A DNA stretch of 64,000 nucleotides, taken from NCBI RefSeq assembly GCF_032051675.1, contig NZ_CP116968.1, positions 3,100,001 through 3,164,000 on the forward strand, in the 5' to 3' direction. The first letter of the stretch is position 1, and every line of letters starts with the position of its first letter. This document shows, in pieces, positions 14,230 to 55,127 of this stretch. Made by a program: the position numbers and the translations under genes. Under the pieces are notes generated by a model. That model worked only from the letters and a program-made list of their open reading frames with translations. It ran no database searches and had not been told where the DNA came from. The DNA comes from Candidatus Nitrospira neomarina. Lineage in GTDB: Bacteria; Nitrospirota; Nitrospiria; Nitrospirales; UBA8639.

Positions 14230-14238
14230 GTCCTGCCT

Positions 14239-17229: not shown

Positions 17230-17238
17230 GTCCTGCCT

Positions 17239-37623: not shown

Positions 37624-38349
37624 ATGGTACATCCCCAGGACAGACCATCAACGACTTCAGGCTCTAGGCATACAAGGGTAGATAGTGCCATCATTCCAGC
37701 AGGGTCAGTTTCCAATCAACCCCGCGAGCCCGTGACTGCACGGGGCAATTCCGCAAAACCTCAATCGGATTTAATTCGAAAAGCCCACTCCGTCCTCCAA
37801 GACGAACTCGAATCCCGTACAAGTCTGGGAACGGAAGTCCTACCAATAGATTCCCTCCCTGTCTTGCAGAATCTCGAAACCACGGTGGAGCCATTACGCC
37901 AACAGCCAGAGACGTTGGTCGACGCTTTGCTCGATGTGCCAAAACATCGGCCAGAGTCCTTGGCCCACATGGCATCCCGATTCTCCAAGCTTGAGGGGCT
38001 CCAGCCTGAAGATAATTTCCAACCAATAGTTCTGCTCAAGATTTCCTTACCACTCAGTCCAGGGCAAACCGGTCACATAGATTTCACCCTGATCAATGAC
38101 GACCCCACAGAAACAGCCGAGCATACCCTGTATACGACGAATCTTGTTGGCATGTCCGGGCACAGAATTCCTGAGACATACATAGCCGTACTTCCGAATC
38201 CGGTACGAATCCCTCCTGGAGAATCCGTAGACGGGCGCATTCAGATTCAAGTCCCCACCGGCACTCCCCCAGGGAGCTATGGCGGATTGCTACAGACGGA
38301 AGACATCACCCGGCTCCAAGCCGTGATCCGCCTTTCTGTTTGTTCCTAG
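37624..38349 (+). CDS. Hypothetical protein with C-terminal beta-sandwich-like part
   Basis: A 241-residue frame of no recognised family. The N-terminal half is polar and Pro/Ser-rich (low complexity, probably disordered) and then helical (VLQDELESRTSLGTE). The C-terminal about 100 residues alternate like beta strands (IVLLKISLPLSPGQTGHIDF, AVLPNPVRIPPGESVDGRIQ, TGTPPGSYGGLLQTED), recalling Ig-like domains of surface or viral-type proteins. It has no signal peptide. No strong ribosome site precedes the ATG, so the start could be further in. It stands 236 bp before the cyclase-AAA gene, in the same direction. Confidence 0.6.
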   Translation: MVHPQDRPSTTSGSRHTRVDSAIIPAGSVSNQPREPVTARGNSAKPQSDLIRKAHSVLQDELESRTSLGTEVLPIDSLPVLQNLETTVEPLRQQPETLVDALLDVPKHRPESLAHMASRFSKLEGLQPEDNFQPIVLLKISLPLSPGQTGHIDFTLINDDPTETAEHTLYTTNLVGMSGHRIPETYIAVLPNPVRIPPGESVDGRIQIQVPTGTPPGSYGGLLQTEDITRLQAVIRLSVCS

Positions 38350-38584
38350 GGAAGATTCAGGCTCTGGACAGGATTGCGGTGAACCAGGATTCTCAACCCA
38401 CGTGCATGAACCAGTGCGTGGCGAAAAGGAAAAATGGAACTTGACGGTAGCGACAGCGGTATTTCAAATCGCTAGAGCCGGGTGAAACGAAGGCTCCGGA
38501 AAGTATGTGTCAGTGCATAAGGAAAGCCAGCGGCCAAGAATGCCGCGGGCGATCTTCTTCAGAATCTGTTCAGAGGGCCTAGAA

Positions 38585-41500
38585 ATGACGTTCGAAGAGA
38601 TCCTGGATGCGACAATGCGTTTGCTTGAGAGTCGAAAGCGCATAACGTATGGGGCCCTCAAAAGACAATTCAGTCTCGATGATGAGTTTCTCGAGGACTT
38701 GAAGGCCGAACTCATCAAAGCTCGACGCGTCGCCGTTGATGAAGGCGGGGAAGTGCTGGTGTGGACCGGGAGGGATGACACAACGCCCAGCCCAATCACA
38801 GAACGGGGAAACATACCTAATCCTTCGCGAGAAGGTCAGGTCACCCACCAGGTTCGACCCTCTGCTCAGGCTGAAAGGCGCCAACTCACAGTGATGTTCT
38901 GTGATCTGGTGGGTTCAACGGCTCTGTCTGAACGGCTTGACCCCGAAGACCTGCGCGAAGTCATAGAAGCCTACCAGGAAACCTGTGACCACGTCATTCA
39001 AGGCTTTGAAGGAACAATCATGCAATTCCAGGGCGATGGGATTCTGGTGTACTTCGGGCATCCCATAGCGCACGAGGATGATGCACAACGGGGAATCCTC
39101 GCCGCTCTCGGAATCTTGAATGAGCTCCCGAATTTAAACAACCGCCTCTGGCAGGTTTGCGATGTTGAGCTGAGCTTGCGGGTTGGAATCCACACCGGCC
39201 TCGTTGTGGTGGGAGAAATGGGAAAAGCCGGGTGGCTGCAGACGATGGCCCTTGGGGAAACGCCCAACGTGGCGTCCCGCATCCAAAACCTGGCGGCCCC
39301 CAACACCATTGTGATTAGCGAGGCGACGCTGAAATTGGTCAAGGGCTTCTTCACCATCCACGCCCTTGGTGACTATCCCATCAAAGGGATTTCCCAACCC
39401 ATAAACCTCTGGCGCGTGCTGGGGAAAAGTGGCGTGAAAAGTCGTTTCGAGGCCGCGGGTAGCGGACTGACCCCTCTGGTGGGGCGGGAGAACGAGATTG
39501 AAGGGCTTCTCAAAGGGTGGGAGCGAGTTAAGGATGCCATTGGCCAGGTCGTCCTGGTGAAGGGAGAGGCCGGAATCGGCAAAACACGATTGGTGGAGGA
39601 GTTGAAAGACCGACTCAGGCACGAGAATCCCATGCGTCAGGAGTACCGGTGCTCCCCCTTCTACCAAAACACCGCCCTCTATCCAGTCACCAATCTATTG
39701 GGACAGTGGCTCCACCTCGAACAGGAAGATGCCGCGGATGCCAAACTTCGCAAACTGGAGAGAGCCCTCAATGGCCCTAAAAACGACCATCCCAAAGCGG
39801 AAGCCGTGGCGCTTCTGGCCAATCTTCTCTCGGTGCCACTGGACAAGAGATATCTCCCCCTAAATTTGACCCCCGAAACTCAGAGGCAGAGGACTCTCGA
39901 GGTCCTGCGGGATTTGCTCTTGGAGACCTCGCCTGGCCGACCAGGGCTCTTCCTCGTAGAAGACTTGCACTGGGTCGACCCCACGACGCTCGATTGGCTG
40001 ACCATGGTGATCAACCACGCCGCCACAGCAGGCGTGCTGGTCATCCTCACCTTTCGCCCTGATTTTGAGCCGCCGTGGGCCGACCAACCCAACGTGGAGA
40101 AAATCTCGCTGAATCGGTTGAACGGCATACAGGTCGGGGCCGTGGTCCAGGGAGTGACAGGCGGCAAGCCGTTGCCTCGGGAGATTACGGAGCAGGTCGT
40201 CAGCCGGACCGACGGCGTGCCGCTGTTCGTGGAGGAACTCACCAAATCATTACTGGAATCAGGACTACTCCGCCAGGGGGAACATGAATATGAGCTCGTA
40301 GGATCACTGCCTTCAATGACGATCCCGGCCACCCTTCAAGACTCGTTAATGGCCCGGTTAGACAGACTCGCGACCGCGAAACCGGTGGCCCAGCTGGGCG
40401 CGACCCTGGGCCGAGAGTTCAGCTATGAGCTCCTTCACGCAGTGTCCCCGCTCGGGGAGACCACGTTGCAGCATGAGCTGACACGACTGGAAGAAGCCGA
40501 ACTCGTGTATCGGCAGGGTCTGCTCCCTCAGGCCACATACATGTTCAAGCACGCCTTGATCCAGGAAGTCGCGTACGAGTCGTTATTGAAAAGCGCGAGA
40601 CGAGAAGTCCACCATCACATCGCCGAGGTCCTGGAAAATCGGTTTCCATCCACGGCCGAGTCCGAACCCGAGCTTTTAGCCCATCACTATACCAAGGCGG
40701 CGCGCCCTGACCGGGCGATTCCGTACTGGCAGCAGGCGGGGCAACGGGCCCTGAAACGTTCCGCCAACCCGGAAGCCATTTCGCATCTGACACAGGGCCT
40801 GACGCTCCTCCAAACACTACCCGAAGGCCCCGAGCGCGACCAGAAGGAGTTAGCGATGCAACTCGGCCTCAGCCCGGCCTACATGATCACGAAAGGATGG
40901 GGAGCGGTGGAAGTCGAACAATGCTCCAAACGGGCCCAAGTTCTAAGCCAAAAGTTAGGAGACGGCCAGAGTCTCTATGCGTCGACATGGGGTTTGTGCT
41001 TTAACTATTTCTTGCGTGGACAGTTAAATGATTCCTTGAAAACGGCGGAAGAGGTTTTCCGGATGGCGTATGCAACCGATAACCCCGTTTTGCACGTAGG
41101 GGCGCATCATGCGGTCGGCTACTCCTACCAATATCGGGGAGATTTCACAAAATCGCGGGAGCATGCGGAGAAGGGTATAGCCCTGTTTAACCTTGATCAG
41201 GAGCGAGCCATTGTCGATTTGTTTCAGTTGTCTTCTACGGTGCCATTGCACTCATTCTTAGGCGGCGGCAAATGGATGCTGGGCTATCCGGAACAGGGCT
41301 TGGCGCATATCGGACAGGCAGTAGCCCTCGCTCAGACGCTCCAACATCCCCCTAGTATCGCCTTCGCCTATGGCACTGGATGCTTTGCCTACCATTCCGC
41401 CCGTGACTTTGAGTGGGTGGAGCATGCATCAGCCAAAGTGCTGGAGCTGGCCGAAAAGGAGGTGTTTCAACTGTGGGATACGATCGCCCTGACATACCAC

Positions 41501-42073
41501 GGCTGGGCGATAGGAATGAAGGGCCGTATCAAGGATGGGATTGAGGAGATCGAAAAGGGCTTGGAAAAGTTTCGACTCACCGGCACTCGGGTTATGCTGC
41601 CTGACGTCATGACAATGCTTGGAGAGCTTCTGTGGCAGGCGGGCCGAATTGAAGAGGCGCTCGCGGCGCTGGACGAAGGAATCCGCGAGGCCACCCACTC
41701 AGACCGAAACGAGCATTTCATGGAACCTGAGCTCTATCGCCTCAAGGCAGAGATTTTCAAACAATGTGCCGAAGTTGAGGATCACCCGGAGAATGCCGCT
41801 CAATTGTTTAAAGATGCCGAAGACTCTTTCCAAGATGCGTTGGATCTCACACGTAAGCAGAGAGCTCGCATGCTGGAGATTCGCGCGGCAGTGGGGTTAG
41901 GTCGACTATGGCAACGACAGGGGAAACCGCAGGAGGCCCTCCAGATCCTCGAGCAGCTCTACAACTCATTCACCGAGGGATTTGACACGGAGGATCTCCG
42001 GGAAGCGCACATATTAATCGAGGAGTTGAGAGAATCGCCATGTCACTCGAGGATTAAAGTTCAGGCCGATTAA
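38585..42073 (+). CDS. Class III cyclase - AAA ATPase - TPR protein, copy 1
   Basis: 1162 residues, soluble. A short N-terminal winged-helix-like module (about 1-62, MTFEEILDATMRLLESRKRI) is followed by a class III cyclase domain (about 95-285). Both metal aspartates are present (VMFCDLVGSTALSERL and MQFQGDGILVYF), as is the LGETPNVASRIQ motif. Next is an AAA16/NACHT-like ATPase (about 300-600) with Walker A GEAGIGKTR and Walker B FLVEDLHWVD. The C-terminal half is TPR-like helices (SKRAQVLSQKLGD, GRIEEALAALDEG). The start is taken by alignment with the tandem paralogue at 42249; an open frame extends 26 codons upstream. Proteins of this design are signal-dependent cyclase/STAND regulators of mostly unknown input. 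Confidence 0.9.
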   Translation: MTFEEILDATMRLLESRKRITYGALKRQFSLDDEFLEDLKAELIKARRVAVDEGGEVLVWTGRDDTTPSPITERGNIPNPSREGQVTHQVRPSAQAERRQLTVMFCDLVGSTALSERLDPEDLREVIEAYQETCDHVIQGFEGTIMQFQGDGILVYFGHPIAHEDDAQRGILAALGILNELPNLNNRLWQVCDVELSLRVGIHTGLVVVGEMGKAGWLQTMALGETPNVASRIQNLAAPNTIVISEATLKLVKGFFTIHALGDYPIKGISQPINLWRVLGKSGVKSRFEAAGSGLTPLVGRENEIEGLLKGWERVKDAIGQVVLVKGEAGIGKTRLVEELKDRLRHENPMRQEYRCSPFYQNTALYPVTNLLGQWLHLEQEDAADAKLRKLERALNGPKNDHPKAEAVALLANLLSVPLDKRYLPLNLTPETQRQRTLEVLRDLLLETSPGRPGLFLVEDLHWVDPTTLDWLTMVINHAATAGVLVILTFRPDFEPPWADQPNVEKISLNRLNGIQVGAVVQGVTGGKPLPREITEQVVSRTDGVPLFVEELTKSLLESGLLRQGEHEYELVGSLPSMTIPATLQDSLMARLDRLATAKPVAQLGATLGREFSYELLHAVSPLGETTLQHELTRLEEAELVYRQGLLPQATYMFKHALIQEVAYESLLKSARREVHHHIAEVLENRFPSTAESEPELLAHHYTKAARPDRAIPYWQQAGQRALKRSANPEAISHLTQGLTLLQTLPEGPERDQKELAMQLGLSPAYMITKGWGAVEVEQCSKRAQVLSQKLGDGQSLYASTWGLCFNYFLRGQLNDSLKTAEEVFRMAYATDNPVLHVGAHHAVGYSYQYRGDFTKSREHAEKGIALFNLDQERAIVDLFQLSSTVPLHSFLGGGKWMLGYPEQGLAHIGQAVALAQTLQHPPSIAFAYGTGCFAYHSARDFEWVEHASAKVLELAEKEVFQLWDTIALTYHGWAIGMKGRIKDGIEEIEKGLEKFRLTGTRVMLPDVMTMLGELLWQAGRIEEALAALDEGIREATHSDRNEHFMEPELYRLKAEIFKQCAEVEDHPENAAQLFKDAEDSFQDALDLTRKQRARMLEIRAAVGLGRLWQRQGKPQEALQILEQLYNSFTEGFDTEDLREAHILIEELRESPCHSRIKVQAD

Positions 42074-42246: not shown

Positions 42247-42248
42247 AT

Positions 42249-45200
42249 ATGACGTTCGAAGAGATCCTGGACGCGACAATGCGATTGCTTGAGAGCCGCA
42301 AGCGCATAACGTATGGGGCCCTCAAGAGACAATTCAGTCTCGATGATGAGTTTCTCGAGGACTTGAAGGCCGAACTCATCAAAGCTCAACGCGTCGCCGT
42401 CGATGAGGGCGGGGAAGTGCTGGTGTGGACCGGGAGGGATGACGCAACGCCTAGCCCAATCACAGAACAGGGAAGCGTGCCGAGTACTTCGCGAGAAGGT
42501 CAGGTCGCCCGCCAGGTTCGGCCTTCTACTCAGGCTGAACGGCGCCAACTCACCGTGATGTTCTGTGATCTGGTGGGCTCAACGGCTCTGTCTGAACGGC
42601 TTGACCCAGAAGACCTGCGCGATGTCATTGGGGCATACCAGGAGACCTGTGACCAGGCCATCCACCAATTCGATGGAACAATCATGCAATTCCAGGGTGA
42701 TGGGATTCTGGTGTACTTCGGGCATCCTGTAGCCCACGAGGATGATGCGCAAAGGGGAGTCCTCGCCGCTCTCGAGATCTTGGCTGAGCTCCCGAAATTG
42801 AACAACCGCCTACAGCAGCTTTGCGATGTTGAGCTGAGCATGCGGATTGGGATCCACACCGGCCTCGTCGTGGTGGGAGAGATGGGAAGATCCGGGTGGC
42901 TGCAGACGGTGGCCCTGGGGGAAACTCTCAACGTGGCTTCCCGAATCCAAAGCCTGACTGACCCCAACACCATTGTGATTAGCGAGGCCACGCTGAAATT
43001 GGTCAAGGGTTTCTTCAACGTCCAAGCCCTTGGTGAACATACCATGAAAGGGATTTCCCAACCCATAAACCTCTGGCGCGTGCTGGGGAAAAGTGGCGTG
43101 CAAAGTCGTTTCGAGGCTGCCGGTAGACGACTGGCCCCTCTGGTGGGACGTGAGAACGAGGTTGAATGTCTTCGCAAAAAATGGGGGAGCGTCAGGGAGG
43201 GCATTGGCCAGGTTGTCATATTGGAGGGAGAGCCGGGAATCGGCAAAACGCGATTGGTGGAGGAGGTGAAAGAGCATCTCAAGCATGACAATCCCACCAT
43301 TCAGGAGTACCGCTGCTCCCCCTTCTACCAACACACTGCCCTCTATCCGGTTATCAATCTATTGGGACAGTGGCTCCCTCTCGGACAGGAAGATTCGGCA
43401 GAGGACAAACTCCGCAAACTGGAGGGTGTCCTCAATGCTCTCAACCATTACCCTTCCAAAGCGGAAGGCGTAGCTCTTCTGGCCAGTCTGTTGGCGGTGC
43501 CGCTGGACAATAAATATGTACCACTCACGTTCACACCTGAAACTCAAAGACAGAAGACTCTCGAGCTTCTGCGGGATTTATTATTGGAGACATCACCCGG
43601 CCGCCCGGTGCTATTCATCGTCGAAGACTTGCACTGGGTCGACCCCACGACGCTCGATTGGCTGACCATGGTGGTGGACCAAGCACCCAAAACAAGCGTT
43701 CTGGTCATGCTCACCTCTCGCCCTGGTTTTGAGCCGCCATGGTCAGACCAAGCAAACGTAGGGAAAATTTCCCTGAAGCGATTGGGCGGAATAGATATTG
43801 GGACAGTGGTCAAGGGAGTGACAGGCGGCAAAATGTTGCCTCCGGAAATTACCGAGCTGGTCGTCAGCCGGACCGACGGCGTGCCGCTATTCGTGGAAGA
43901 ACTCACCAAATCCTTATTGGAATCAGGGCTGCTCCGCCAACGGAACAATGAATATGAGCTCGTAGGATCACTGCCTTTAATGGCGATCCCTGCCACACTT
44001 CAAGACTCGCTAATGGCTCGTTTGGACAAACTCTCGACCGCAAAACCGGTCGCGCAGTTGGGAGCGACCCTGGGTCGGGAATTCAGTTATGAGCTCCTTC
44101 ACGCGGTGTCCCCGCTCGAGGAGACCACATTGCAGAATGCGCTGACACAACTGGAGGAAGCCGAACTTTTGTATCGGCAGGGTCTGCTCACCCAGGCAAA
44201 ATTCACGTTCAAGCACGCATTGATTCAGGAAGCCGCGTACGAGTCGTTATTGAAGAGTACGCGGCGAGAGTTTCATCATCACATCGCTGAAGTACTGGAA
44301 AATCAGTTTCCTTCCACAGCCGAGTCCGAACCGGAGCTCATAGGCTATCACTACACCCAAACGGCACACCCGGAACGGGCTATTCCGTACTGGCAGAAAG
44401 CGGGGCAACGGGCGCTCAAACGGTCTGCAAACCCGGAAGCCATTTCGCACCTGACAAAGGGGCTAACACTACTCCAAACACTGCCCGAAGACCCCGAGCG
44501 CGACAAGAAGGAGTTAATGATGCAGGTTGGCCTCAGCCCGGCCTACATGATTACAAAAGGATGGGGCGCGGTGGAGGTCGAACAATGCTCCAAACGTGCC
44601 CAAGCGCTAAGCCAAAAATTAGGAGACGGCCAGAGTCTCTATGCGGCGACATGGGGCTTGTGCTTCAACTACTTCATGCGTGGGCAATTAAATGTTTCCT
44701 TGAAAACCGGGGAAGAGGTGTGCCAGATGGCATATGCAACTGCCCTCCCCATCCTGAAAGTAGGGGCGCATCATGCGATCGGATACTCTCACCACTATCG
44801 CGGAGAATTTACTGAGTCACGGAAACATGCGGAGATGGGAATAGCCCTATTCAACTTTGAGCAGGAGAGATCGATCATCAGCCTGTTTCAGTTGTCTTCT
44901 ACAGTGGCCTTGCACGAGTTCTGTGGCAGCAGCAAGTGGATGCTTGGTCTGCCGGAATCAGGTCTGAAACATGTCCAAGAAGCTATAGATCTCGCGGAGA
45001 AACTCGAACATCCGCCCAGCATTGCCTTTGCTTACGGTATCGGCTGCTTTGCCTACCATCCGGCCCGGGACTTCGATTGGGTAGAGAATGCTTCAGACAA
45101 AGTACTGGAGCTTGCCAAAAAGGAGGTATTTCAACTGTGGGATATCATCGCCCTGATGTACCACGGTTGGGCGATAGCCATGAAGGGCCGCCTTGAGGAA

Positions 45201-45707
45201 GGGCTTAACGAGATCGAAAGGGGGCTTGAAAAATTTCGACTCACCGGCAATCGGATTATCCTGCCTGACGTTATGACGATGCTTGGAGAGGTTCTGTGGC
45301 ACGCGGGCCGAATCGAAGAGGCCCTCGCGGCGCTGGATGAAGGAATCCACGAGGCTACCCATCCCGACCGAAATCAGCATTTCATGGAATCTGAGCTCTA
45401 CCGTCTCAAGGCAGAGATTTTTAAACAATGTGCCGAAATTGAGGAGAACCCAAAGAACGCAGCTAAATTGTTTAACGATGCCCAAGATTCTTTCCAAGAT
45501 GCATTGGATCTTACACGTAAGCAAAAAGCCCGCATGCTGGAGATCCGAGCGGCAGTTGGTTTAGGCCGGCTGTGGCAAAAGCAGGGAAAACAGCAAAAGG
45601 CTCTCCAGATTCTCGAGAATCTCTATAACTCGTTTACCGAGGGATTGGACACGGAGGATCTCCGTGAAGCGCACATATTGATTGAGGAGTTGAGAGAATC
45701 GTCATAA
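42249..45707 (+). CDS. Class III cyclase - AAA ATPase - TPR protein, copy 2
   Basis: 1152 residues, closely similar to copy 1 over the whole length and almost identical in the first 70 residues. The cyclase domain keeps both metal aspartates (MFCDLVGST, MQFQGDGILVYF) and has LGETLNVASRIQ. The ATPase has Walker A GEPGIGKTR and Walker B FIVEDLHWVD. TPR-like helices follow to the end (GRIEEALAALDEG, GRLWQKQGKQQKALQIL). Divergence is concentrated in the TPR half, as expected if the two copies sense different partners. It is followed after 89 bp by the DUF3237 gene, which also followed copy 1 before being truncated, so the cyclase and DUF3237 proteins are a natural pair. Confidence 0.9.
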   Translation: MTFEEILDATMRLLESRKRITYGALKRQFSLDDEFLEDLKAELIKAQRVAVDEGGEVLVWTGRDDATPSPITEQGSVPSTSREGQVARQVRPSTQAERRQLTVMFCDLVGSTALSERLDPEDLRDVIGAYQETCDQAIHQFDGTIMQFQGDGILVYFGHPVAHEDDAQRGVLAALEILAELPKLNNRLQQLCDVELSMRIGIHTGLVVVGEMGRSGWLQTVALGETLNVASRIQSLTDPNTIVISEATLKLVKGFFNVQALGEHTMKGISQPINLWRVLGKSGVQSRFEAAGRRLAPLVGRENEVECLRKKWGSVREGIGQVVILEGEPGIGKTRLVEEVKEHLKHDNPTIQEYRCSPFYQHTALYPVINLLGQWLPLGQEDSAEDKLRKLEGVLNALNHYPSKAEGVALLASLLAVPLDNKYVPLTFTPETQRQKTLELLRDLLLETSPGRPVLFIVEDLHWVDPTTLDWLTMVVDQAPKTSVLVMLTSRPGFEPPWSDQANVGKISLKRLGGIDIGTVVKGVTGGKMLPPEITELVVSRTDGVPLFVEELTKSLLESGLLRQRNNEYELVGSLPLMAIPATLQDSLMARLDKLSTAKPVAQLGATLGREFSYELLHAVSPLEETTLQNALTQLEEAELLYRQGLLTQAKFTFKHALIQEAAYESLLKSTRREFHHHIAEVLENQFPSTAESEPELIGYHYTQTAHPERAIPYWQKAGQRALKRSANPEAISHLTKGLTLLQTLPEDPERDKKELMMQVGLSPAYMITKGWGAVEVEQCSKRAQALSQKLGDGQSLYAATWGLCFNYFMRGQLNVSLKTGEEVCQMAYATALPILKVGAHHAIGYSHHYRGEFTESRKHAEMGIALFNFEQERSIISLFQLSSTVALHEFCGSSKWMLGLPESGLKHVQEAIDLAEKLEHPPSIAFAYGIGCFAYHPARDFDWVENASDKVLELAKKEVFQLWDIIALMYHGWAIAMKGRLEEGLNEIERGLEKFRLTGNRIILPDVMTMLGEVLWHAGRIEEALAALDEGIHEATHPDRNQHFMESELYRLKAEIFKQCAEIEENPKNAAKLFNDAQDSFQDALDLTRKQKARMLEIRAAVGLGRLWQKQGKQQKALQILENLYNSFTEGLDTEDLREAHILIEELRESS

Positions 45708-45796
45708 CACCTGGCAATTACAGTGTAGGCCGATTACGCAAGAGGGACTGTGAGCCTTTCGAGTCAACAGACCCTTAGCCGAGAAGGGGAATGATG

Positions 45797-46672
45797 ATGC
45801 GTTACAACCACGAAGGGCTCACACTGTGGTATGGCACAGAGGACACGCCGGCACCCGAAGGGGTTGTGGAATCAGGCGACAACCTCAGTGTCATTGCAGC
45901 TGTCTCTCCGGCAAACCCAAGCAATACGGTCAGTGTCTTGTATCGTGTCGAGGAAAGTTTCGAGCGCACCGTCCGTGCGTCCTTGTTACGAAATGAACAT
46001 GGTGCAGGACGACAGTACTTCAAAGCAGCTTTTCCAAGACTCCCTCCTGGGTCGAAGGTCGAATATACCGTTATCGGCGAAAATAGTGGACGGCGGGTTC
46101 CGAACCCGTGCGCGATGACCGGTCTGACCCGTCAATTTGAAGTCCGAAGTGCCTTCGCTTCAACCTCTACCCCCGACGAAGCATCCCAACCAAATCTGGC
46201 TGAACGTCGTTTACCGTTTAGCATCGAATATCTTTCCCATTTTACGATTCATCTTGGCGGTAGCCCTCCTGAGATTATCGGAGAAACTCCGGAAGGGATT
46301 AAGGTCAATTGGTACATAAGCAGCGGTGAATTTACCGGACCAAAACTTAATGGAAAGATTAATCAGGAAGGCGGTGACTGGATGACTATTCGTCAGGACG
46401 GCGTCGGGCTCATGGATGTCCGTGCCACGCTGGAGACCAGCGATGGAGCATTGATCTTCATACACTACCCAGGCTACTTCGAATTGGGTGAGAAGGGATA
46501 CGAAAATTTTTTGAAGAAGAAGTGGCCACCCACACCACCCACAAGGACAACCCCTTGGATGATTACCTCTCACCCTAAGTACCTGTGGGTCAACCGATTA
46601 CAATGCATTGGAATCGGTCGGGTCATCATGAAAGAACCAATTTATGAATATGACCTGTACGGATTGATTTAG
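45797..46672 (+). CDS. DUF3237 protein with an added N-terminal beta domain
   Basis: About 291 residues. The C-terminal half (about 140-290) is a DUF3237 (UPF0311) domain: GGSPPEIIGETPEGIKVNWY, GEFTGPKLNGKI, GGDWMTIRQDGVGLMDVRA, FIHYPGYFELGEKGYENF, SHPKYLWVNRLQCIGIGRV. Members are small barrel proteins of unknown function. The N-terminal about 120 residues are beta-rich (SVLYRVEESFERTVRAS, PPGSKVEYTVIGENSG), like an Ig/carbohydrate-binding module fused in front; DUF3237 proteins are usually only about 150 residues. The third of three consecutive ATGs (45797) is chosen because AAGGGG lies 6-7 nt upstream and because it matches the start of the remnant at 42136. It stands just before the encapsulin-like gene. 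Confidence 0.82.
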   Translation: MRYNHEGLTLWYGTEDTPAPEGVVESGDNLSVIAAVSPANPSNTVSVLYRVEESFERTVRASLLRNEHGAGRQYFKAAFPRLPPGSKVEYTVIGENSGRRVPNPCAMTGLTRQFEVRSAFASTSTPDEASQPNLAERRLPFSIEYLSHFTIHLGGSPPEIIGETPEGIKVNWYISSGEFTGPKLNGKINQEGGDWMTIRQDGVGLMDVRATLETSDGALIFIHYPGYFELGEKGYENFLKKKWPPTPPTRTTPWMITSHPKYLWVNRLQCIGIGRVIMKEPIYEYDLYGLI

Positions 46673-46808: not shown

Positions 46809-47732
46809 ATGGAACAGGAAAATTTCCCTGGTCAATGGACGGAAGACCAATGGAGCCTCGTACAGCAGACAGTTCGGGATGAAGCAACCAGGGTACGCGT
46901 GGCCGCATCATTTTTGCCACGCAATGGCCCTTTGGGTTCAGATACTGATTCCGTGCCAACACAGGACTTTTTTGATAACCAGGCTAATCCCCTGCCCCTA
47001 CCAAATGGCCCCCTTAACCGCCTGGCAGTTGACGACCGAACAACACGACCGCTCACAACCATCTCCGTAAATGTTCAGATCAGAAACTCGCAAATGGCCC
47101 AACCGGACCTTTCCAGCGCTCTCAGTATGTTTCGGCGCGCCGCGAATATTATCGGACGGATCGAGGACGGTCTGATTTTTCAAGGTCAAAACTCAGTGAA
47201 CCCTTTTGATAATGGGCAATTCCCAAACCTACCCAATGTTTTCCAAGTTTCGGGCGGAGCGATATGGAGGGGACTCATTGACGCTGCAACCCGTCAAGGG
47301 TCAGGACAGCAGCCGATTGATAGTTTACGTGATCGGAATGGCACACTTGCGTATTCTCCAGATGCATTCGTGAGGGACATTACGCGGGGGATATCAACAC
47401 TAGAAGGAGGAGGATACCTAGCACCATTCGCCCTCGTTTTAGGCAACGAACTCTTTGAATTGGCCCATACGCCAACTGATTCGCTTGTGATGCCTGCCGA
47501 TCGAATCAAGCCAATTCTCAACGGTCCGTTGTTGCGTTCCAGCACGATACGACCTCTATACGGAGTTTTAATGTCCACGGCTGGTGATCCTGTTGATCTG
47601 GTATTGGCCAGCGATATCTCGGTTAAACCTGTCCAGGTTACGATGGAACCACGGTACGTGTACCGCGTGTCCCAGCGTTTTACCCTTCGCATTAAGCAAC
47701 CAAGAGCCCTTTTGGCTTTTGGGCCAGAATAG
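46809..47732 (+). CDS. Encapsulin-like shell protein (HK97 fold, linocin M18 family)
   Basis: 307 residues. Features recognised from family 1 encapsulins are an N-terminal helix with WTEDQWSLVQQTVRDEATRV leading to FLPRNGPLGSD (compare the I-T-x-x-A-W...GPLGW opening), and the backbone-helix signature FRRAANIIGRIEDGLIFQG (compare A-A-x-x-L-A-x-x-E-D-x-x-I-F-x-G). Others are GGGYLAPFALVLGNELFEL, RIKPILNGPLLRSSTIRP, GDPVDLVLASDISV and a closing LRIKQPRALLAF. About 40 residues longer than typical family 1 shells, with extra sequence near residues 45-65 and 115-160. No cyclic-nucleotide domain is inserted, unlike family 2B. The start follows GAGGTGAAGAAGCT. No DyP peroxidase, ferritin-like or desulfurase cargo gene is adjacent; the downstream genes are isoprenoid enzymes. 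Confidence 0.75.
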   Translation: MEQENFPGQWTEDQWSLVQQTVRDEATRVRVAASFLPRNGPLGSDTDSVPTQDFFDNQANPLPLPNGPLNRLAVDDRTTRPLTTISVNVQIRNSQMAQPDLSSALSMFRRAANIIGRIEDGLIFQGQNSVNPFDNGQFPNLPNVFQVSGGAIWRGLIDAATRQGSGQQPIDSLRDRNGTLAYSPDAFVRDITRGISTLEGGGYLAPFALVLGNELFELAHTPTDSLVMPADRIKPILNGPLLRSSTIRPLYGVLMSTAGDPVDLVLASDISVKPVQVTMEPRYVYRVSQRFTLRIKQPRALLAFGPE

Positions 47733-47843
47733 AATTGCCGTTTGACTCTAAAAAGGGGATGGGGAAATGGCAGAAAAAAGCACCTGCCAAACAAAAAGAA
47801 ATCATCAGCCCAAAGAAACCCCTCAAGCAAGGGAGGAAGCAAA

Positions 47844-48212
47844 ATGCCTGACCCAACTCAATCGACACAGAAACCCATTTTGAAACCTGTGCCTGACACA
47901 AAGAATGAGGGCCCTTTCCGCTACTGCCAGCGTAATAAGGGTAAGCTGGTCGTTAAAATAAGAAACCATGGAGGAGATATGCCTGGGGATCATAAAATCA
48001 AAGTAAAGATAGACTATAGACAATATGGGCAGGAAGTAGGAGAGGATTTGGAGGGACTGAAAAGCGGAGCTGAAACTAAACAACTAGAATTCAATCTCCC
48101 CAAGGAGGCCTTCGATCCAGACTGTGAGTTCGATATCAATATTTATATTGGAGAAACTTTGCACCGTACAACCGGTGGAATATGCGCTGGGGAAATTCAC
48201 TGCTCCCAATAA
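47844..48212 (+). CDS. Small CARDB-like beta-sandwich protein
   Basis: A 122-residue protein. A short Pro/Gln/Lys-rich N-terminal segment (about 30 residues, MPDPTQSTQKPILKPVPDTK) precedes one beta-sandwich domain: FRYCQRNKGKLVVKIRNHGG, MPGDHKIKVKIDY, LKSGAETKQLEFNLP, DCEFDINIYIG. The pattern (strand with V-x-N-x-G, then a G-linked strand pair, then P-x-x-C-x-F) is that of CARDB-like adhesion domains. It has no signal peptide. GGGAGGAAG lies 6 nt before the ATG. It lies 111 bp after the shell gene and is probably co-transcribed. A disordered tail on a small partner is reminiscent of encapsulin cargo design, but no known targeting peptide is recognised. Confidence 0.65.
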   Translation: MPDPTQSTQKPILKPVPDTKNEGPFRYCQRNKGKLVVKIRNHGGDMPGDHKIKVKIDYRQYGQEVGEDLEGLKSGAETKQLEFNLPKEAFDPDCEFDINIYIGETLHRTTGGICAGEIHCSQ

Positions 48213-48458
48213 TTGTAGCGGCCTTAAAATAATGGCCAATATCAAAGTCACAGAAAGCTGAAAGCAGGCCTTTTCCAGGGCGGACTGAGGGCCTCCTTGG
48301 TTTGGAAAAGCCGTTTGTACGGTACATCTTGTTAGTGAATACCCACAGCTGATGAAGTTCGAATGGTAAGGGAAAAGTGGAATCATGAGTCAAACATATC
48401 TAAGGCCTATAAAAAAACTAAACGTCAGGACTGGTTGGAAAAGTTTTCAGGTATTTAA

Positions 48459-50540
48459 ATGAGTAGGGAAATGGGCAAAAAAGTCATAATTCTCGGTGGG
48501 GGTATCGGCGGCATGAGTGCGGCCCATGAGCTGGCTGAACGAGGATTTGAAGTCGAAGTCTATGAACGACAGGAGATCCCCGGGGGAAAGGCTCGCAGCA
48601 TTCCCGTACTTGAATCCATTGATGACCGTGGGAGCCAGGGCACTCACGGGCCTGCCATTGCGAAATGGCGGCGGATGAGAGGGCATGAGTTGGGACCCAA
48701 CGAAAAAACTCCCTGGCTTCCGGGCGAGCACGGCTTTCGGTTTTTCCCAGGTTTTTACAAACACATCGTGGATACCATGGACCGGATTCCTTACGGAGAG
48801 GGAAAAGTTTCTGACAATCTGGTCAAAACCACTCAATTGTTGCTGGCCAGGGAAGGGGCAGACGAAATGGTTCTTCCCTCCCGATTTCCACAGACGCCCC
48901 AGGATATAAAATCCTCCATTAATGCTGTCCTCAAGGTGTTATCTGATGAAATTGGCGTTTCGCTGCAAGAGATGCAGCTTTTTGGAGGGCGGGTCTGGCA
49001 GATCGCGACCTCCTCCCACGAACGCCGGCTGGACGAATATGAAAAAATCGGATGGTGGGATTTTATTCAAGCCTCGCAAGGTTCCGAAGACTATAAAAAA
49101 TTCTTCGGGCACGGAATCACTCGCTCTCTCGTCGCCTCTCAAGCTAACCTTGCCAATACACGCACAATCGGGAACATCTTTCTTCAACTGGTCTTTGACA
49201 TTATTGACCCGACCATCCCAACCAGCGATCGTTTACTTAACGGACCGACGAACGCGGTATGGATTCGTCCATGGTTGAACTATTTAGAACGACGCGGTGT
49301 GAAATACCACCTGGATTGTACGGTACAGTCCATCGATTATTCCCACGGACACGTGCAGAGTATTACGGTGGAAAAGGGGGGGACAAAAACAACCGTGGCG
49401 GGCGATTATTTTGTAGCGGCACTCCCTGTTGAACGGATAGCGCCCTTAATCAACCTGAGGCTTCAAGAAGCCGACCCGCGCCTGAGCCATCTATCTGAGT
49501 TGGCAAAAAATGTTGCCTGGATGAACGGCATCCAGTTTTACATCACGCACCCGTTGCCCATTGCCCACGGCCATGTCATCTTTGTTGACACACCCTGGGC
49601 TCTCACTTCAATTTCCCAAGGCCAGTTCTGGCCTGACTTTGACTTGGCCAAATTCAGCGACGGTGATACACGGGATATTCTCTCGGTCGATATCTCCGAC
49701 TGGGAAACCGAAGGGGTGCTCTATGGGAAAAAGGCCAGCGACTGCACCCGTGACGAAATCGCCATGGAGACCTGGGAGCAACTCAAGCGCAGCCTTAACG
49801 ATATGCATGGAAGGATGGTCCTACGGGATGAAGATTTGGACCATTGGTTTTTGGATCCGGATATCCGTCGCGATCCCGAGGAAAGGAAGTTACAGGAAAA
49901 CGTCGAACCCCTTCTCGTGAATCTTAAAGATACGTGGCGTCTGAGGCCGGATGCCGTGACTGCCATTCCCAATTTATTCCTTGCGGCAGACTATGTGCGA
50001 ACTCATACCGACCTGGCCACGATGGAGGCGGCCAATGAGGCTGCCCGGAGATCGGTCAATGGCATTCTGAATCACAGTGGGTCCGGGGCCACCCGCTGTC
50101 GCGTATGGGCGCTTCATGAGCCTGAGATTCTCCTACCCTGGCGTGAATATGACCGGGCCCGGTGGGAACAGCACCTGCCCTGGGAAGACCCATTAGCCCT
50201 CATCAGTATCGCGAAACCAATTCTCGAGGTATTTGAAAAGACCGGTGCCCTATCCAGCATTGACACTCGTTCGTTCCAGCGTTTATCTGAAAAATTTGAA
50301 GTCGTCAACAGCTTGCCAGGGCTTACAAACGACAACCAAACGTCCCCAATAGAAAATCTGCTGGAGGTGACAAAGCCCGTTCACTCGATCGTCGAGGAGG
50401 TCAGGGAAATGATCCCCTCTGATGGGGGACTGACAGAATTAGGTCCAAGCTCTGGAGCACAGGACAAAGGAATGAAGGGGTGGGAAGGTGAAAGGAAGCC
50501 ACGGCAACCTGGCCGACTGCGAATCATACAAAAACAGTAG
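48459..50540 (+). CDS. FAD-dependent amine-oxidase/phytoene-desaturase-like enzyme
   Basis: 693 residues. The N-terminal dinucleotide-binding motif VIILGGGIGGMSAAHELAER is followed by an acidic strand end (VEVYERQEIPGGKA), the pattern of CrtI/HpnE-type flavoenzymes. WLPGEHGFRFFPGFYKHIVD is a conserved substrate-side motif of this subfamily. The FAD C-terminal motif is LFLAADYVRTHTDLATMEAA then NEAARRSVNGIL. About 130 extra residues follow the flavin domain. Family members desaturate or dehydroxylate polyisoprenoids (phytoene, hydroxysqualene), and the prenyl synthase 25 bp downstream fits such a substrate. The precise reaction cannot be told. An ATG four codons in has AGGGAA upstream and is an alternative start. 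Confidence 0.82.
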   Translation: MSREMGKKVIILGGGIGGMSAAHELAERGFEVEVYERQEIPGGKARSIPVLESIDDRGSQGTHGPAIAKWRRMRGHELGPNEKTPWLPGEHGFRFFPGFYKHIVDTMDRIPYGEGKVSDNLVKTTQLLLAREGADEMVLPSRFPQTPQDIKSSINAVLKVLSDEIGVSLQEMQLFGGRVWQIATSSHERRLDEYEKIGWWDFIQASQGSEDYKKFFGHGITRSLVASQANLANTRTIGNIFLQLVFDIIDPTIPTSDRLLNGPTNAVWIRPWLNYLERRGVKYHLDCTVQSIDYSHGHVQSITVEKGGTKTTVAGDYFVAALPVERIAPLINLRLQEADPRLSHLSELAKNVAWMNGIQFYITHPLPIAHGHVIFVDTPWALTSISQGQFWPDFDLAKFSDGDTRDILSVDISDWETEGVLYGKKASDCTRDEIAMETWEQLKRSLNDMHGRMVLRDEDLDHWFLDPDIRRDPEERKLQENVEPLLVNLKDTWRLRPDAVTAIPNLFLAADYVRTHTDLATMEAANEAARRSVNGILNHSGSGATRCRVWALHEPEILLPWREYDRARWEQHLPWEDPLALISIAKPILEVFEKTGALSSIDTRSFQRLSEKFEVVNSLPGLTNDNQTSPIENLLEVTKPVHSIVEEVREMIPSDGGLTELGPSSGAQDKGMKGWEGERKPRQPGRLRIIQKQ

Positions 50541-50565
50541 GAAATCCCGATAGGATTATCGAGCA

Positions 50566-51603
50566 ATGGATTCTCAAGATTACAACACATTTCTTGAACG
50601 GTTGGGTGACTACCGCCGCCGGACACTGGAAGCTCTGCAACGATCTCTCCCCGACAAAGAGCCACGTCGTTATCTCTACGCCCCGGTGCGGGAGTATCTG
50701 GAACGTTCTGGAAAAGGGCTCCGCCCTGCTCTCTGTCTTGCCACCTGTCGAGCCTTTGGTGGCCGCATCGAGGATGCCCTTGACTCGGCAGCCGCGATTG
50801 AAATGCTCCATAACGCCTTTCTCGTTCACGACGACATCGAAGACGGGAGTGATTTTCGACGCACGCATCGGACCCTGCATACGCAATATGGAGTTCCCAT
50901 CGCCGTCAATACCGGCGACGCGATGCAAGCGCTCGGCATGGGTATCCTGAGAAAAAACTACTCTACGCTGGGCCCCAAGCTGTCATGGCAGATTTTTGAA
51001 GAGTTCTACGCCATGCTGATGGAGTCGTTTGAAGGACAAGCGATTGAGCTGGGGTGGATACGAGACAATCGATGCGATATTTCCGATGAAGACTATCTCC
51101 GCATGACCTTGAAGAAAACCTGCTGGTACAGTTTTATCCATCCCTGCCGAATTGGCGCACTCATTGCCCGTCCTGAAGACAAGAATCTTGACCGGTTCAA
51201 CGCGTTTGGTCATTACCTTGGCTCGGCATTCCAGATTCAGGACGATGTGTTGAATCTGATAGGGAGTCGTCAGAAATACGGTAAAGAAATCGCCGGAGAT
51301 CTGTACGAAGGAAAGCGGACGCTCATGCTTTCTCACTTGTTTGAGAAAGGCTCTCCTGAGGAGACCGCGAAACTGAAATCCTTTCTAGCCAGGTCGCGCA
51401 ATGGCAAATATGCCGATCAAATTGACTGGGTAAGGGAGTTGATGAACACACATGGGAGCATTGAATACGCACGATCCAGTGCACGCGAACTCCGTGATGC
51501 AGCCGAACAAGCCTTTTTTGACGCGTATCACGATGCGCCGGAAAGCGAGGACAAAGCCTTCATTCAGCAAAGTCTCCATTACATGATTGAGCGATCCTCC
51601 TAA
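50566..51603 (+). CDS. Polyprenyl (geranylgeranyl/farnesyl) diphosphate synthase
   Basis: 345-residue trans-isoprenyl diphosphate synthase that condenses isopentenyl diphosphate onto allylic primers. The first aspartate-rich motif is FLVHDDIEDGSDFRR, with DDxxD and the following two arginines. The second aspartate-rich region is QIQDDVLNLIG. GKGLRPALCLATCRAFGG provides the K-x-x-R-P motif, and the chain-length region before the first motif is EMLHNAFL. Chain length cannot be read with certainty; short-chain (C15-C20) is likely. It begins 25 bp after the flavoenzyme gene without a clear ribosome site, suggesting coupled translation, and forms a unit with the FadL-like and IDI genes. Confidence 0.92.
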   Translation: MDSQDYNTFLERLGDYRRRTLEALQRSLPDKEPRRYLYAPVREYLERSGKGLRPALCLATCRAFGGRIEDALDSAAAIEMLHNAFLVHDDIEDGSDFRRTHRTLHTQYGVPIAVNTGDAMQALGMGILRKNYSTLGPKLSWQIFEEFYAMLMESFEGQAIELGWIRDNRCDISDEDYLRMTLKKTCWYSFIHPCRIGALIARPEDKNLDRFNAFGHYLGSAFQIQDDVLNLIGSRQKYGKEIAGDLYEGKRTLMLSHLFEKGSPEETAKLKSFLARSRNGKYADQIDWVRELMNTHGSIEYARSSARELRDAAEQAFFDAYHDAPESEDKAFIQQSLHYMIERSS

Positions 51604-51664
51604 TCTCCCTTTTCCCTGGAGAAACGGCTCTTGAGGCCGAGGAACCGCAAAGAAAGGAGCCCAG

Positions 51665-53029
51665 GTGAAAGACCTTTCATTAAACCCTAAAAGAATGGTC
51701 TCCCACGCCGGCTTTTTGATAAGCGCCCTCTTTTTGGCGACGCAAGGTGTCGCGTATGGTGAGGGATATCGACTGCCATACCAGGGCGCCGCAGCGGCTG
51801 GTCAAGGGGAGGCCTTTATCGCCCAGGCTGACGATGCGTCTGCCTTATATTACAATCCCGCAGGTCTTACTCAATTAAGAGGCGTTCAGGTCCAATTCGG
51901 CGCAAATTTCATTACCGGGAAATTCGAATATACCAGTCCAACGGGCCAAAAAGTCGATGGTGATCTCCGGCAATCTGTGGTCATGCCGCCCCCAAGCCAA
52001 TTTTATTTGACCGCAAACCTTAAAGACCTGGGCTTCACGGCCCTCGGGCCTCTCATAGTGGGAATCGGTTTGAACTCCCCATTTGGGCTCGGCTCAAAAT
52101 GGCCCGATGACGCCCCGTTTTCCAACATCGTAACGGAAGCCACTGTCCCCCTTCTGGATATCAAACCTACTCTGGCTTATAAGATTCATGACATGGTTTC
52201 TCTAGGAGCCGGGATGGATATTTATACATTTGCGAAGTTCATTGGTGAAGGTCAGGCTGAACTGAAAACCCAATCGACCGAAATCAATGGAACCGACACG
52301 GCCGTCGGATTCAATGTAAGTGCACTTTTAACCCCCTTGCGAAATAGCGCAGGGGACCCTCTCGTGAATTTCGGATTGGTTTACAGACACCAGGCAACGC
52401 TTCATCTGAAGGGAGACTTTCTCGTGAACGGTAAAAAGGTGGACGATGCCGAGACGACGCTCCCACTCCCATGGGTTTTGAGTGCCGGGCTCGCCGTATG
52501 GCCGATTCGGGACGCGGCTCGAGCCTGGAAAGTAGAAGTCGACGTGGATTATGTCGGATGGAGCCAATTTAAAAGTTTAGATATCCGTCTTTCCAACGCG
52601 CCAAACATTTCGCAACCCACGGATTGGGAGAACACGTTCACATTTAGCGCCGGCACCGAATACAAATGGCTCAAGCTCGCCTCACTCCCCCATTGGGAGA
52701 TTGCCCTCCGGGGAGGTTATCAACGGTCTAATTCAGCAAACCCAGCTCGCACGTTCACCCCTGCCATTCCTGATTCCAATTGGAACATCTTTGCGACCGG
52801 GCTCGGATTGAAATGCAAACGGGGATCGCACTTCCTGGGGTTCATCAGTTGCGGGGATCCTAATCCTGACTCAGGCTACCTGGAAGCCATTGTTTTGGAT
52901 CTAGCGTTTCAATGGGCTCTCTGGGAGACCCGCACCATCAATGGGAACGAAATTAGCCCTACCATCAATGGTAAGTACAAAACGAAAGACTGGTATATCG
53001 GATCGTTCAGTATTGGTCTGATTTTTTAA
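51665..53029 (+). CDS. FadL/OmpP1/TodX-family outer-membrane channel
   Basis: A 454-residue outer-membrane barrel for hydrophobic compounds. A signal peptide (about residues 13-31, GFLISALFLATQGVAYGEG) is followed by the family N-terminus YRLPYQGAAAAGQGEAFIAQ and ADDASALYYNPAGLTQLRGV, the hatch/NPAG motif. IGLNSPFGLGSKWP and a beta-barrel to the end (WYIGSFSIGLIF, aromatic C-terminus) complete the pattern. It starts with GTG at 51665, with AAAGGAG 6-7 nt upstream. FadL proteins carry long-chain fatty acids or hydrocarbons across the outer membrane. Placed among isoprenoid genes, it may import or export a lipid or terpenoid, which is inference. Confidence 0.9.
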   Translation: MKDLSLNPKRMVSHAGFLISALFLATQGVAYGEGYRLPYQGAAAAGQGEAFIAQADDASALYYNPAGLTQLRGVQVQFGANFITGKFEYTSPTGQKVDGDLRQSVVMPPPSQFYLTANLKDLGFTALGPLIVGIGLNSPFGLGSKWPDDAPFSNIVTEATVPLLDIKPTLAYKIHDMVSLGAGMDIYTFAKFIGEGQAELKTQSTEINGTDTAVGFNVSALLTPLRNSAGDPLVNFGLVYRHQATLHLKGDFLVNGKKVDDAETTLPLPWVLSAGLAVWPIRDAARAWKVEVDVDYVGWSQFKSLDIRLSNAPNISQPTDWENTFTFSAGTEYKWLKLASLPHWEIALRGGYQRSNSANPARTFTPAIPDSNWNIFATGLGLKCKRGSHFLGFISCGDPNPDSGYLEAIVLDLAFQWALWETRTINGNEISPTINGKYKTKDWYIGSFSIGLIF

Positions 53030-53213
53030 TGACTTATACACATTCTGCACACCACCAGTATATGGAATTGGTTCGCGTTGACTAAGGCTACATTCTTCCA
53101 AAAAGTACTCGGTGTAAATTTATCTGTATCGTTGTGGAATGCCTTGCAATTGTCTAAGCTCAGGAGGAGATTCGACATCAAACTCATTTGAAAATGGAAA
53201 TGACGGATACCAC

Positions 53214-53798
53214 ATGAACGTCAAGGAAGTTGAACCGAAGCACATGACATTTTCCCAACCAGACATGTTGATACTTGTCGATAAAAACGATGAAGTCATC
53301 GGCTTTCAGGAGAAAGAGGCCTGTCATGATGGCGACGGCCAATTGCACCGTGCCTTCTCCGTGTTCCTCTTTGACCAAACTGGAAGGCTTCTTCTGCAAA
53401 AGCGCAGCACCCACAAGCGTCTTTGGGGGGATTTCTGGTCAAACAGCTGCTGTAGCCATCCGCGCCCGCATGAGAACACCCGCGACGCGGCCGAAAAACG
53501 TGTTCGTGAAGAGTTGGGCGTCGATTCGTGCCTGCACTTTCTCTTCAAGTTCGAATATCGTGCTCGCTACGATGGAGGTGGTTCAGAGCACGAACTTTGC
53601 TATGTGTACGCCGGTCTCTTAGCCGGAGAGCCGAAGGTAAATGAGTTCGAGATAGGGGCTTGGCGGATGATCTGCGCACAGTCGCTCGACCGAGAGCTCG
53701 ATGAAAAGCCGGGTGACTTTACTCCATGGCTCAAGTCGGAATGGCCGCGCCTGCGAGAGAGTCACTGGGACGCTGTAAAAGGTCTCTTGTCCCTATAA
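53214..53798 (+). CDS. idi: Isopentenyl-diphosphate delta-isomerase, type I
   Basis: About 194 residues. Interconverts isopentenyl and dimethylallyl diphosphate, supplying the primer for the prenyl synthase upstream. It is a Nudix-fold enzyme. LHRAFSVFLFDQTGRLLLQK carries the metal His. WSNSCCSHPRPHE contains the catalytic cysteine, with an additional adjacent Cys, and the metal-binding His. RVREELGV is the Nudix-type helix, and EHELCYVYAG carries the catalytic Glu. It ends in the tryptophan-containing FTPWLKSEW. The ATG at 53214 is chosen over an upstream ATG (53139) because the extra 25 residues are low-complexity; a later ATG at 53244 is also possible. Confidence 0.9.
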   Translation: MNVKEVEPKHMTFSQPDMLILVDKNDEVIGFQEKEACHDGDGQLHRAFSVFLFDQTGRLLLQKRSTHKRLWGDFWSNSCCSHPRPHENTRDAAEKRVREELGVDSCLHFLFKFEYRARYDGGGSEHELCYVYAGLLAGEPKVNEFEIGAWRMICAQSLDRELDEKPGDFTPWLKSEWPRLRESHWDAVKGLLSL

Positions 53799-54415: not shown

Positions 54416-54730
54416 ATGGTTATGCAAGGCGAAATGCAATTCCCAAAGGACTTTTGGCGCCTCACTCTTCCACGGAAGTTTGATAGGGTAGCTCAAAAAG
54501 AATTCGAGGCTAGAATCCAACAGATCCTATCGGGTGGCTATACTAAGTTAGCGCTGGATCTCAATTTTGTGGCGTTGATTAGTAATTCTGGATTAGGCCA
54601 AATTGCTATGACCTGTTTAGATCTCAAAGCAAAGGGTATTCAGGTGAGCTTCATTGGGATTTCACCAAAAATCAAAGGTATGCTGGACCGACATGGACTC
54701 TCAGATCTTCTTGCCGCTGCACAAATCTAG
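54416..54730 (+). CDS. STAS-domain protein (anti-sigma-factor-antagonist type)
   Basis: A 104-residue single STAS domain. LALDLNFVALISNSGLGQIA matches the L-D-L-x-x-V-x-x-I-x-S-x-G-L segment, with the Ser that SpoIIAA-type proteins phosphorylate. VSFIGISPKIKGMLDRHGLS is the closing strand-helix pair. Such proteins bind and neutralise anti-sigma kinases or act in partner-switching cascades. No kinase or phosphatase partner gene lies nearby. It may start at 54416 or two codons later (54422); GAGAAGG lies upstream of both. It stands alone between two gene-poor gaps (617 bp before, 321 bp after). Confidence 0.82.
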   Translation: MVMQGEMQFPKDFWRLTLPRKFDRVAQKEFEARIQQILSGGYTKLALDLNFVALISNSGLGQIAMTCLDLKAKGIQVSFIGISPKIKGMLDRHGLSDLLAAAQI

Positions 54731-55051: not shown

Positions 55052-55127
55052 TGGCTCCTCGGGCAGGACTCGAACCTGCGACCATTCGGTTAACAGCCGA
55101 ACGCTCTACCAACTGAGCTACCGAGGA
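55052..55127 (-). tRNA. tRNA-Asn (anticodon GTT)
   Basis: The reverse strand folds as a complete 76-nt cloverleaf: acceptor TCCTCGG/CCGAGGA, D-arm TAGCTCAGTTGGTAGAGC, anticodon loop CTGTTAA (anticodon GTT, plus-strand positions 55092-55094), T-arm GGTTCGAGTCC, and a genomically encoded CCA end. Confidence 0.96.

Follow-up and report, generated by a model that had tools for sequence, protein, structure and literature searches.

The window analysed here, a stretch of 64,000 nucleotides from Candidatus Nitrospira neomarina (contig NZ_CP116968.1, positions 3,100,001 to 3,164,000), carries a gene module in which an encapsulin-like shell protein is encoded beside isoprenoid enzymes. The source replicon is a single contig of 4.8 Mb from a genome that is 98% complete. 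On its profile matches, the gene at 46809-47732 encodes a divergent encapsulin of the family 1 type that lacks a cyclic-nucleotide-binding insertion, and its linkage to isoprenoid genes is real and conserved across two phyla. We consider it reasonably probable that the module builds a family-1-like encapsulin nanocompartment with a dedicated flavoenzyme cargo, tethered by a C-terminal octapeptide, and that the substrate of this enzyme comes from the product of the adjacent prenyl diphosphate synthase. A first-pass annotation had named the genes from the shell to an isopentenyl-diphosphate isomerase (IDI), and all of them were found in place on the plus strand (Table 1). The module itself begins upstream of the 46809 start given there and includes the DUF3237 gene and the adjoining copy of the cyclase-ATPase gene.

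A divergent family-1-like shell

The shell protein matches the Linocin_M18 profile PF04454 at 76.7 bits (E 2.2e-21), over a cut-off of 24.3. It also matches the NCBIfam model for family 1 encapsulins, NF041155 (E 2.1e-22), at 79.8 bits against a curated cut-off of 100. The shells of two relatives from the same genus, G299 (82.9 bits) and G302 (92.2 bits), likewise fall below this cut-off, while the Ruegeria shell passes it with 105.7 bits; public records already assign the individual Ruegeria shells to family 1. A profile built from four sequences (the window shell with its nearest relative, plus two shells from Ruegeria) matches structures of Myxococcus xanthus EncA at E 2e-20, in two stretches that cover the N-terminal helix region and the C-terminal half of the shell. 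The alignment runs from residue 13 of EncA onward, and the N-terminal helix region is, at the level of sequence, well conserved in all six shells. In known shells, this region forms the groove for the targeting peptide (PMC6668986, PMC11202242). With PF04454 over its cut-off and the EncA structures matched, the encapsulin/linocin-type identity proposed in the first-pass annotation is borne out. The same is true of the absence of the inserted cyclic-nucleotide domain of family 2B, as a Pfam scan of the shell found no domain besides PF04454.

The start codon at 46809 is preceded by a purine-rich ribosome-binding site (GAGAGGTGAAGAAGCT upstream) and agrees with the starts in relatives. The shell is under purifying selection, with a ratio of nonsynonymous to synonymous substitution rates (dN/dS) of about 0.2-0.3; here and below these ratios are simple pairwise counts, which are unreliable near synonymous saturation, as for the G299 and G302 shells. 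Run against 396 genomes sampled from the phylum, the shell profile picked up its own genome and, weakly, G169, and nothing else. A phage major capsid protein was considered and rejected: the shell has no match among PHROG families or in a phage collection, and its neighbours are metabolic and signalling genes. Scans of viral contigs with the shell (two- and four-sequence alignments) and with the flavoenzyme also found no relatives. A plasmid of Nitrosospira sp. NRS527 carries at 9977-10900 (L029) an encapsulin-like gene that is only distantly related to the window shell (25% identity); it lies between genes annotated as SpvB/TcaC N-terminal and neuraminidase-like domain proteins.

Conservation of the module in two phyla

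The shell is present in 4 of the 21 genomes of the genus, namely the window genome, G313 (L002), G299, and G302. The contigs of the three relatives are partial and keep the gene order of the window, through the FadL-type channel and IDI genes in G302 and G313; the contig of G299 stops inside the flavoenzyme gene. Ruegeria is a genus of marine Alphaproteobacteria. A scan of genome contigs returned one locus, and the distribution beyond the Nitrospirota is based on a plasmid collection. In that collection, the megaplasmids of Ruegeria sp. THAF33 and AD91A carry in order a cyclase-ATPase, an encapsulin, a DUF3237 protein, a flavin adenine dinucleotide (FAD)-dependent oxidoreductase, and a polyprenyl synthetase. 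Identity to the window proteins is about 32% (32-33%) for the cyclase-ATPase, 44% for the shell, 30% for the DUF3237 protein, and 54% for both the flavoenzyme and the prenyl synthase. Such distances make it implausible that five neighbouring genes came together again by chance. The co-occurrence of shell and enzymes first seen in the window is thus kept by the genus relatives and by both megaplasmids. Every gene tested shows purifying selection (dN/dS 0.11-0.5), with values of 0.11-0.16 for the DUF3237 protein, flavoenzyme, and prenyl synthase, and 0.5 for the small CARDB-like protein.

The flavoenzyme and its C-terminal tail

The flavoenzyme is a member of the Amino_oxidase superfamily with 693 residues. 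Among curated models HpnE scores best, with 75.5 bits where 283 are required, and other named families score lower, with zeta-carotene desaturase, for example, far below its cut-off. The earlier description as phytoene-desaturase-like therefore stands at the level of the superfamily and fails for phytoene desaturase proper. HpnE was rejected as an identity because its curated cut-off is missed, and phytoene desaturase because its cut-off is missed and the two squalene/phytoene synthase genes of the genome lie far from the locus. With these two genes present elsewhere, a C30 or C40 substrate is possible, though unlinked.

Eight homologues from plasmids of haloarchaea, Streptomyces, and Nocardia are shell-less; they are 41-46% identical to the window enzyme, are 544-565 residues long, and end at about window residue 575-590. 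The annotation within 3-7 kb was inspected beside seven of the eight and includes no encapsulin, and the Nocardia record bears no annotation. The shell-linked flavoenzymes extend about 90-130 residues beyond the end of these homologues. This extension is poorly alignable between lineages and probably disordered; in the window protein, the residues P, G, S, E, K, D, Q, N, and T make up 63% of it, versus 49% of the core. The last eight residues are RLRIIQKQ in the window, RLRIVQKP in G313, RIRIVQKP in G302, and RVIITQKG in both Ruegeria, so that the terminal pattern R-[LIV]-x-I-x-Q-K-x is found in all loci with an intact flavoenzyme end. The R, I, Q, and K at positions -8, -5, -3, and -2 are identical in three divergent lineages. 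When the terminal 110 residues were shuffled, none of 200,000 shuffles gave a four-identity match of the last eight residues, and the sole other matching placement within the last 110 residues is the octamer motif shifted by one residue.

Known targeting peptides are C-terminal and follow a flexible linker. The native peptide of Thermotoga maritima is NTGGDLGIRK, a consensus targeting peptide reads DGSLGIGSLKG, and binding of the T. maritima peptide involves two hydrophobic residues one residue apart and a basic residue near the end (PMC7925596). The octamer is like these published peptides in its hydrophobic-x-hydrophobic arrangement with a basic residue near the end (L-R-I...K, V-I-I...K). 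Following its poorly alignable linker, the octamer is probably an encapsulin targeting peptide that docks the flavoenzyme in the shell. The suggestion that the flavoenzyme may be a new cargo gains strong support from this conserved C-terminal tag, which is found only in shell-linked flavoenzymes. A search of four genomes with the strict pattern returned no second protein with the same tail, and that pattern misses even the orthologous tails of the relatives.

Isoprenoid enzymes and signalling neighbours

The identities first given to the prenyl synthase, FadL-type channel, and IDI are confirmed by their profile matches (Table 1). The prenyl synthase is 90% identical in G302. Its best NCBIfam model is the family 2 encapsulin cargo polyprenyl transferase NF041169 (E 1e-57), at 196 bits against a cut-off of 450 and nearly tied with IdsA at 194 bits. 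The synthase domain starts at residue 36, leaving no long N-terminal extension, and there is no C-terminal tag. The FadL gene is linked in G302, G313, and a further relative, G253, and within the genus a close IDI orthologue is found only in shell-bearing genomes. On two Streptomyces plasmids (L031, 4124-9563; L039, 118-5746), a flavoenzyme homologue (41% identical) lies convergent with a prenyl synthase. This pair is like the window in its two enzymes but has no encapsulin and no C-terminal extension, which supports a common pathway, present both with a compartment and in its absence; MpaB/DUF2236 oxygenase genes lie nearby, a further difference from the window. A prenyl synthase of Kitasatospora is 50% identical, and no shell is annotated near it.

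At each of the six loci the DUF3237 gene adjoins the shell gene, and its product resembles UPF0311 proteins of solved structure. The small protein had been called CARDB-like; in the window it scores 15.0 bits, below the cut-off of 22.7, but the G302 orthologue reaches 54.5 bits. Identity of this protein within the genus is 52-37%. The second cyclase-ATPase copy (42249-45707) is conserved in G302, G299, G313, and both Ruegeria. The gene is tandem-duplicated in the window (38507-45707) and single in G302 and Ruegeria. Since the cyclase-ATPase lies beside the shell block in the Nitrospirota and in Ruegeria alike, it is a fair hypothesis that this enzyme regulates the module, perhaps through cyclic AMP.

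The locus as a variable site

The substantial genes between 37624 and 54730 are co-directional and are flanked by a minus-strand CRP-type regulator and a minus-strand tRNA-Asn. The first gene of this run, encoding an Ig/NEW-like protein, has a weak match (E 2e-4) to a small gene adjoining the Ruegeria prenyl synthase, and the STAS-domain protein at the other end is 91% identical in G313 with a partial match in G302. Further away in the window, at 11008-20013, three large tandem paralogues resemble, by eye, filamentous-haemagglutinin-type exoproteins, and an FhaC/ShlB-like gene lies at 2145-3962.

Table 1. Features of the encapsulin locus and its borders, in window positions
Feature	Position	Strand	Basis or remark
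CRP/FNR-type regulator	36233..36901	-	PF00027 cNMP_binding and Crp helix-turn-helix; left edge of variable site, outside module
Ig/NEW-like protein, first gene of run	37624..38349	+	88% identical orthologue upstream of G302 cyclase
Class III nucleotide cyclase + AAA_16 ATPase + TPR, first of tandem pair	38507..42073	+	Pfam
Class III nucleotide cyclase + AAA_16 + TPR, second copy, directly 5' of shell block	42249..45707	+	Pfam
Protein with C-terminal DUF3237 domain and conserved N-terminal half	45791..46672	+	PF11578 8e-29
Family-1-like encapsulin shell, 307 aa	46809..47732	+	PF04454 2.2e-21; NF041155 2.1e-22; EncA profile 2e-20
Small CARDB-like protein, fast-evolving, Nitrospirota loci only	47742..48212	+	CARDB over cut-off in G302 orthologue
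FAD-dependent amine-oxidase/phytoene-desaturase superfamily enzyme, proposed cargo	48459..50540	+	PF01593 9e-17, Rossmann motif
Flavoenzyme C-terminal linker, residues ~576-685	50184..50513	+	Missing from shell-less homologues
Proposed cargo-targeting peptide RLRIIQKQ	50514..50537	+	Conserved R-[LIV]-x-I-x-Q-K-x at exact C-terminus
Short-chain prenyl diphosphate synthase (IdsA/geranylgeranyl diphosphate type)	50566..51603	+	PF00348 5e-62
FadL-type outer-membrane channel, Nitrospirota loci only	51665..53029	+	PF03349 1e-37 (FadL/Toluene_X)
Type 1 isopentenyl-diphosphate isomerase (IDI)	53139..53798	+	PRK03759 and TIGR02150 over (equivalog) cut-off
STAS-domain protein, last gene of run	54416..54730	+	PF01740 1e-9
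tRNA-Asn, right edge of variable site	55052..55127	-	ARAGORN

In one relative, G191, the CRP homologue lies directly beside the tRNA-Asn, leaving the site empty, and four shell-less relatives are homologous to the window from about 55048-55052. The same site in G253 (C1, about 528300-548000; L073/L074) holds a different isoprenoid cluster without a shell. This cluster encodes an IspH-like protein, IDI, FadL, a geranylgeranyl-reductase-like protein, an amine-oxidase-type enzyme of 748 residues that differs from the window flavoenzyme, an ADC-like protein of 820 residues, a prenyl synthase, and a cyclase-ATPase; a short fragment of a second IDI lies beside the tRNA. The empty site in G191 and the shell-less cluster in G253 indicate that the site exchanges isoprenoid clusters with and without a compartment. 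An integrative element bounded by tRNA repeats was rejected, as the window holds no tRNA repeat of at least 14 nt. DNA identity between the window and G299 (L052) is about 83-98% up to 46650, falls to 40-77% over the shell and small gene, and returns to about 81-98% from 48450. It appears that the shell and small protein are swapped or diverge together, with the putative cargo left in place.

What the shell may enclose

It is possible that the shell holds the CARDB-like or the DUF3237 protein instead and that the flavoenzyme tail tags another interaction. The constant position of the DUF3237 gene beside the shell would fit this, as would the small gene, which in four loci immediately follows the shell gene and varies in step with it (window-G299 identity drops from about 95% to 40-77% over these two genes only). 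The small gene is, however, missing from the Ruegeria loci, and the conserved terminal tag is visible on the flavoenzyme and was seen on neither of the other two proteins; we regard this explanation as unlikely. Alternatively, the prenyl synthase itself could be the cargo, or the shell could store prenyl intermediates, as in family 2B. The synthase is conserved in both phyla and finds its best NCBIfam model in a family 2 cargo, but its score lies far under the cut-off of that model and nearly ties with IdsA, and it has neither the long N-terminal extension nor a C-terminal tag, which makes this proposal improbable. The idea of the first-pass annotation that the compartment sequesters free prenyl intermediates is not supported, and no direct evidence for it was found.

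The shell and isoprenoid genes might also be mere neighbours in a variable site without a joint function. Shells are patchy in the genus and the site between the CRP gene and the tRNA-Asn does vary among relatives, but the same association recurs in another phylum and the genes tested are under purifying selection, and we see only a slim chance of this. An ordinary family 1 encapsulin with a classical cargo encoded elsewhere in the genome seems very improbable. Cargo outside the operon has been proposed for some family 1 systems, such as BfrB in Mycobacterium tuberculosis (PMC8346489). However, no classical cargo is present among the module genes at any locus, although a genome-wide scan for DyP and ferritin-like proteins was not made, and the strict tail pattern matched the flavoenzyme alone in its own genome.

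Several observations weigh against the enclosure of the flavoenzyme in an isoprenoid-linked compartment. Only six loci in two clades were found, and the two Ruegeria loci are closely related. The genomes behind three of the four Nitrospirota loci are fragmented (83-88% complete), and the loci of G302 and G313 are split over contigs. The flavoenzyme falls far below the cut-off of every named family and has no substrate assigned, and its haloarchaeal homologues are not adjacent to prenyl synthases. The octamer is without the canonical GSL core (LGIGSLK type) of common targeting peptides, although known native peptides vary. AlphaFold2 models, each built from a two-sequence alignment, reached a predicted local distance difference test (pLDDT) score of 31 for the shell and 33 for the flavoenzyme; neither model is usable, and the claim of an encapsulin fold therefore rests on sequence profiles.

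Proposed mechanism

In the nanocompartment that we favour, the prenyl diphosphate synthase would make a short-chain allylic prenyl diphosphate, supplied in the Nitrospirota by the co-located IDI. The flavoenzyme substrate would probably come from this prenyl chain, either directly or by way of a derivative. Within the assembled shell, the flavoenzyme would be tethered by its linker and the targeting octapeptide, which may dock in the groove between the N-terminal helix and the P-domain. The encapsulated enzyme could then perform a redox step on a product derived from prenyl diphosphate, and the shell would shield the cytosol from a reactive flavin step and from a hydrophobic substrate or product.

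Relation to known encapsulin systems

The closest comparison is with the T=3/T=4 branch of family 1, represented by M. xanthus EncA and the shell of the Quasibacillus thermotolerans IMEF system. The window shell is like this branch in its profile match over both halves, its N-terminal helix, and the lack of an inserted domain, and the proposed C-terminal targeting peptide on the cargo is a further common feature. It differs in its score below the NF041155 cut-off, a cargo class that would be new, a tag of the type [LIV]-x-I...QK and not GSL, and a shell gene that lies upstream of the cargo gene. The feature in common with family 2B is the presence of isoprenoid genes in the operon (PMC8346489, PMC12407261), and IDI is reported to be enriched in family 2B terpene-cyclase operons (PMC8346489, PMC12407261). 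The prenyl transferases of that family carry 50-100 disordered N-terminal residues (PMC8346489). The window has no such long synthase N-terminus, no terpene cyclase, and no cyclic-nucleotide-binding-like E-loop insertion, and encodes a cyclase instead. Membership of family 2B was rejected because the shell insertion and the synthase extension are absent; the profile that the shell matches is that of family 1. The first-pass annotation had seen in the cyclic-nucleotide genes a parallel with family 2B, which is less close than it seems; the insertion that would carry this parallel is absent here and is reported not to bind cyclic nucleotides (PMC12407261), but the cyclase does stand as a conserved neighbour in both phyla.

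A Pfam scan found no classical cargo (DyP, Flp/ferritin-like, IMEF, haemerythrin, or Bfr) among the module genes, in agreement with the earlier remark that the locus has none; such a cargo does not strictly define family 1. The encapsulin of G169, from the same phylum and superfamily, adjoins a DyP-like gene (named from its sequence) that ends in DGSLGIGSLKKEAGYE, with the canonical tag DGSLGIGSLKK, which indicates that a standard cargo and its tag can be recognised where they exist. The G169 shell gene (L064, 7306-8111) is spread over two overlapping reading frames, suggestive of a frameshift or a fault in the assembly.

The cargo types of family 1 given in a large 2021 survey are peroxidases, ferritin-like proteins, haemerythrins, and cytochrome/NIR-HAO systems, along with 90 unassigned systems; an isoprenoid cargo is not listed (PMC8346489). 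The main text of a 2019 survey mentions a Nitrospiraceae encapsulin and names no cargo for it. A search of the open-access literature returned no paper linking DUF3237 to encapsulins, and none linking a prenyl synthase and a flavoenzyme to a family 1 shell. The module and the tag thus appear to be new, and the flavoenzyme, judged by its tail and gene neighbourhood, very probably represents a cargo class new to family-1-like encapsulins.

A broader interpretation is tentative and on balance doubtful. It holds that this is a separate encapsulin lineage that spread between phyla and encloses an isoprenoid redox enzyme through its own class of targeting peptide, with shell output set by a dedicated cyclase-ATPase switch, and that isoprenoid-handling encapsulins thereby arose a second time, independently of family 2B. 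The tagged flavoenzyme beside a prenyl synthase adds to family-1-like shells a candidate cargo class and a testable targeting peptide, and whether the octapeptide loads cargo into the window shell is a question that can be put directly to experiment. Such a cargo class would suggest that the enclosure of isoprenoid enzymes evolved two or more times.

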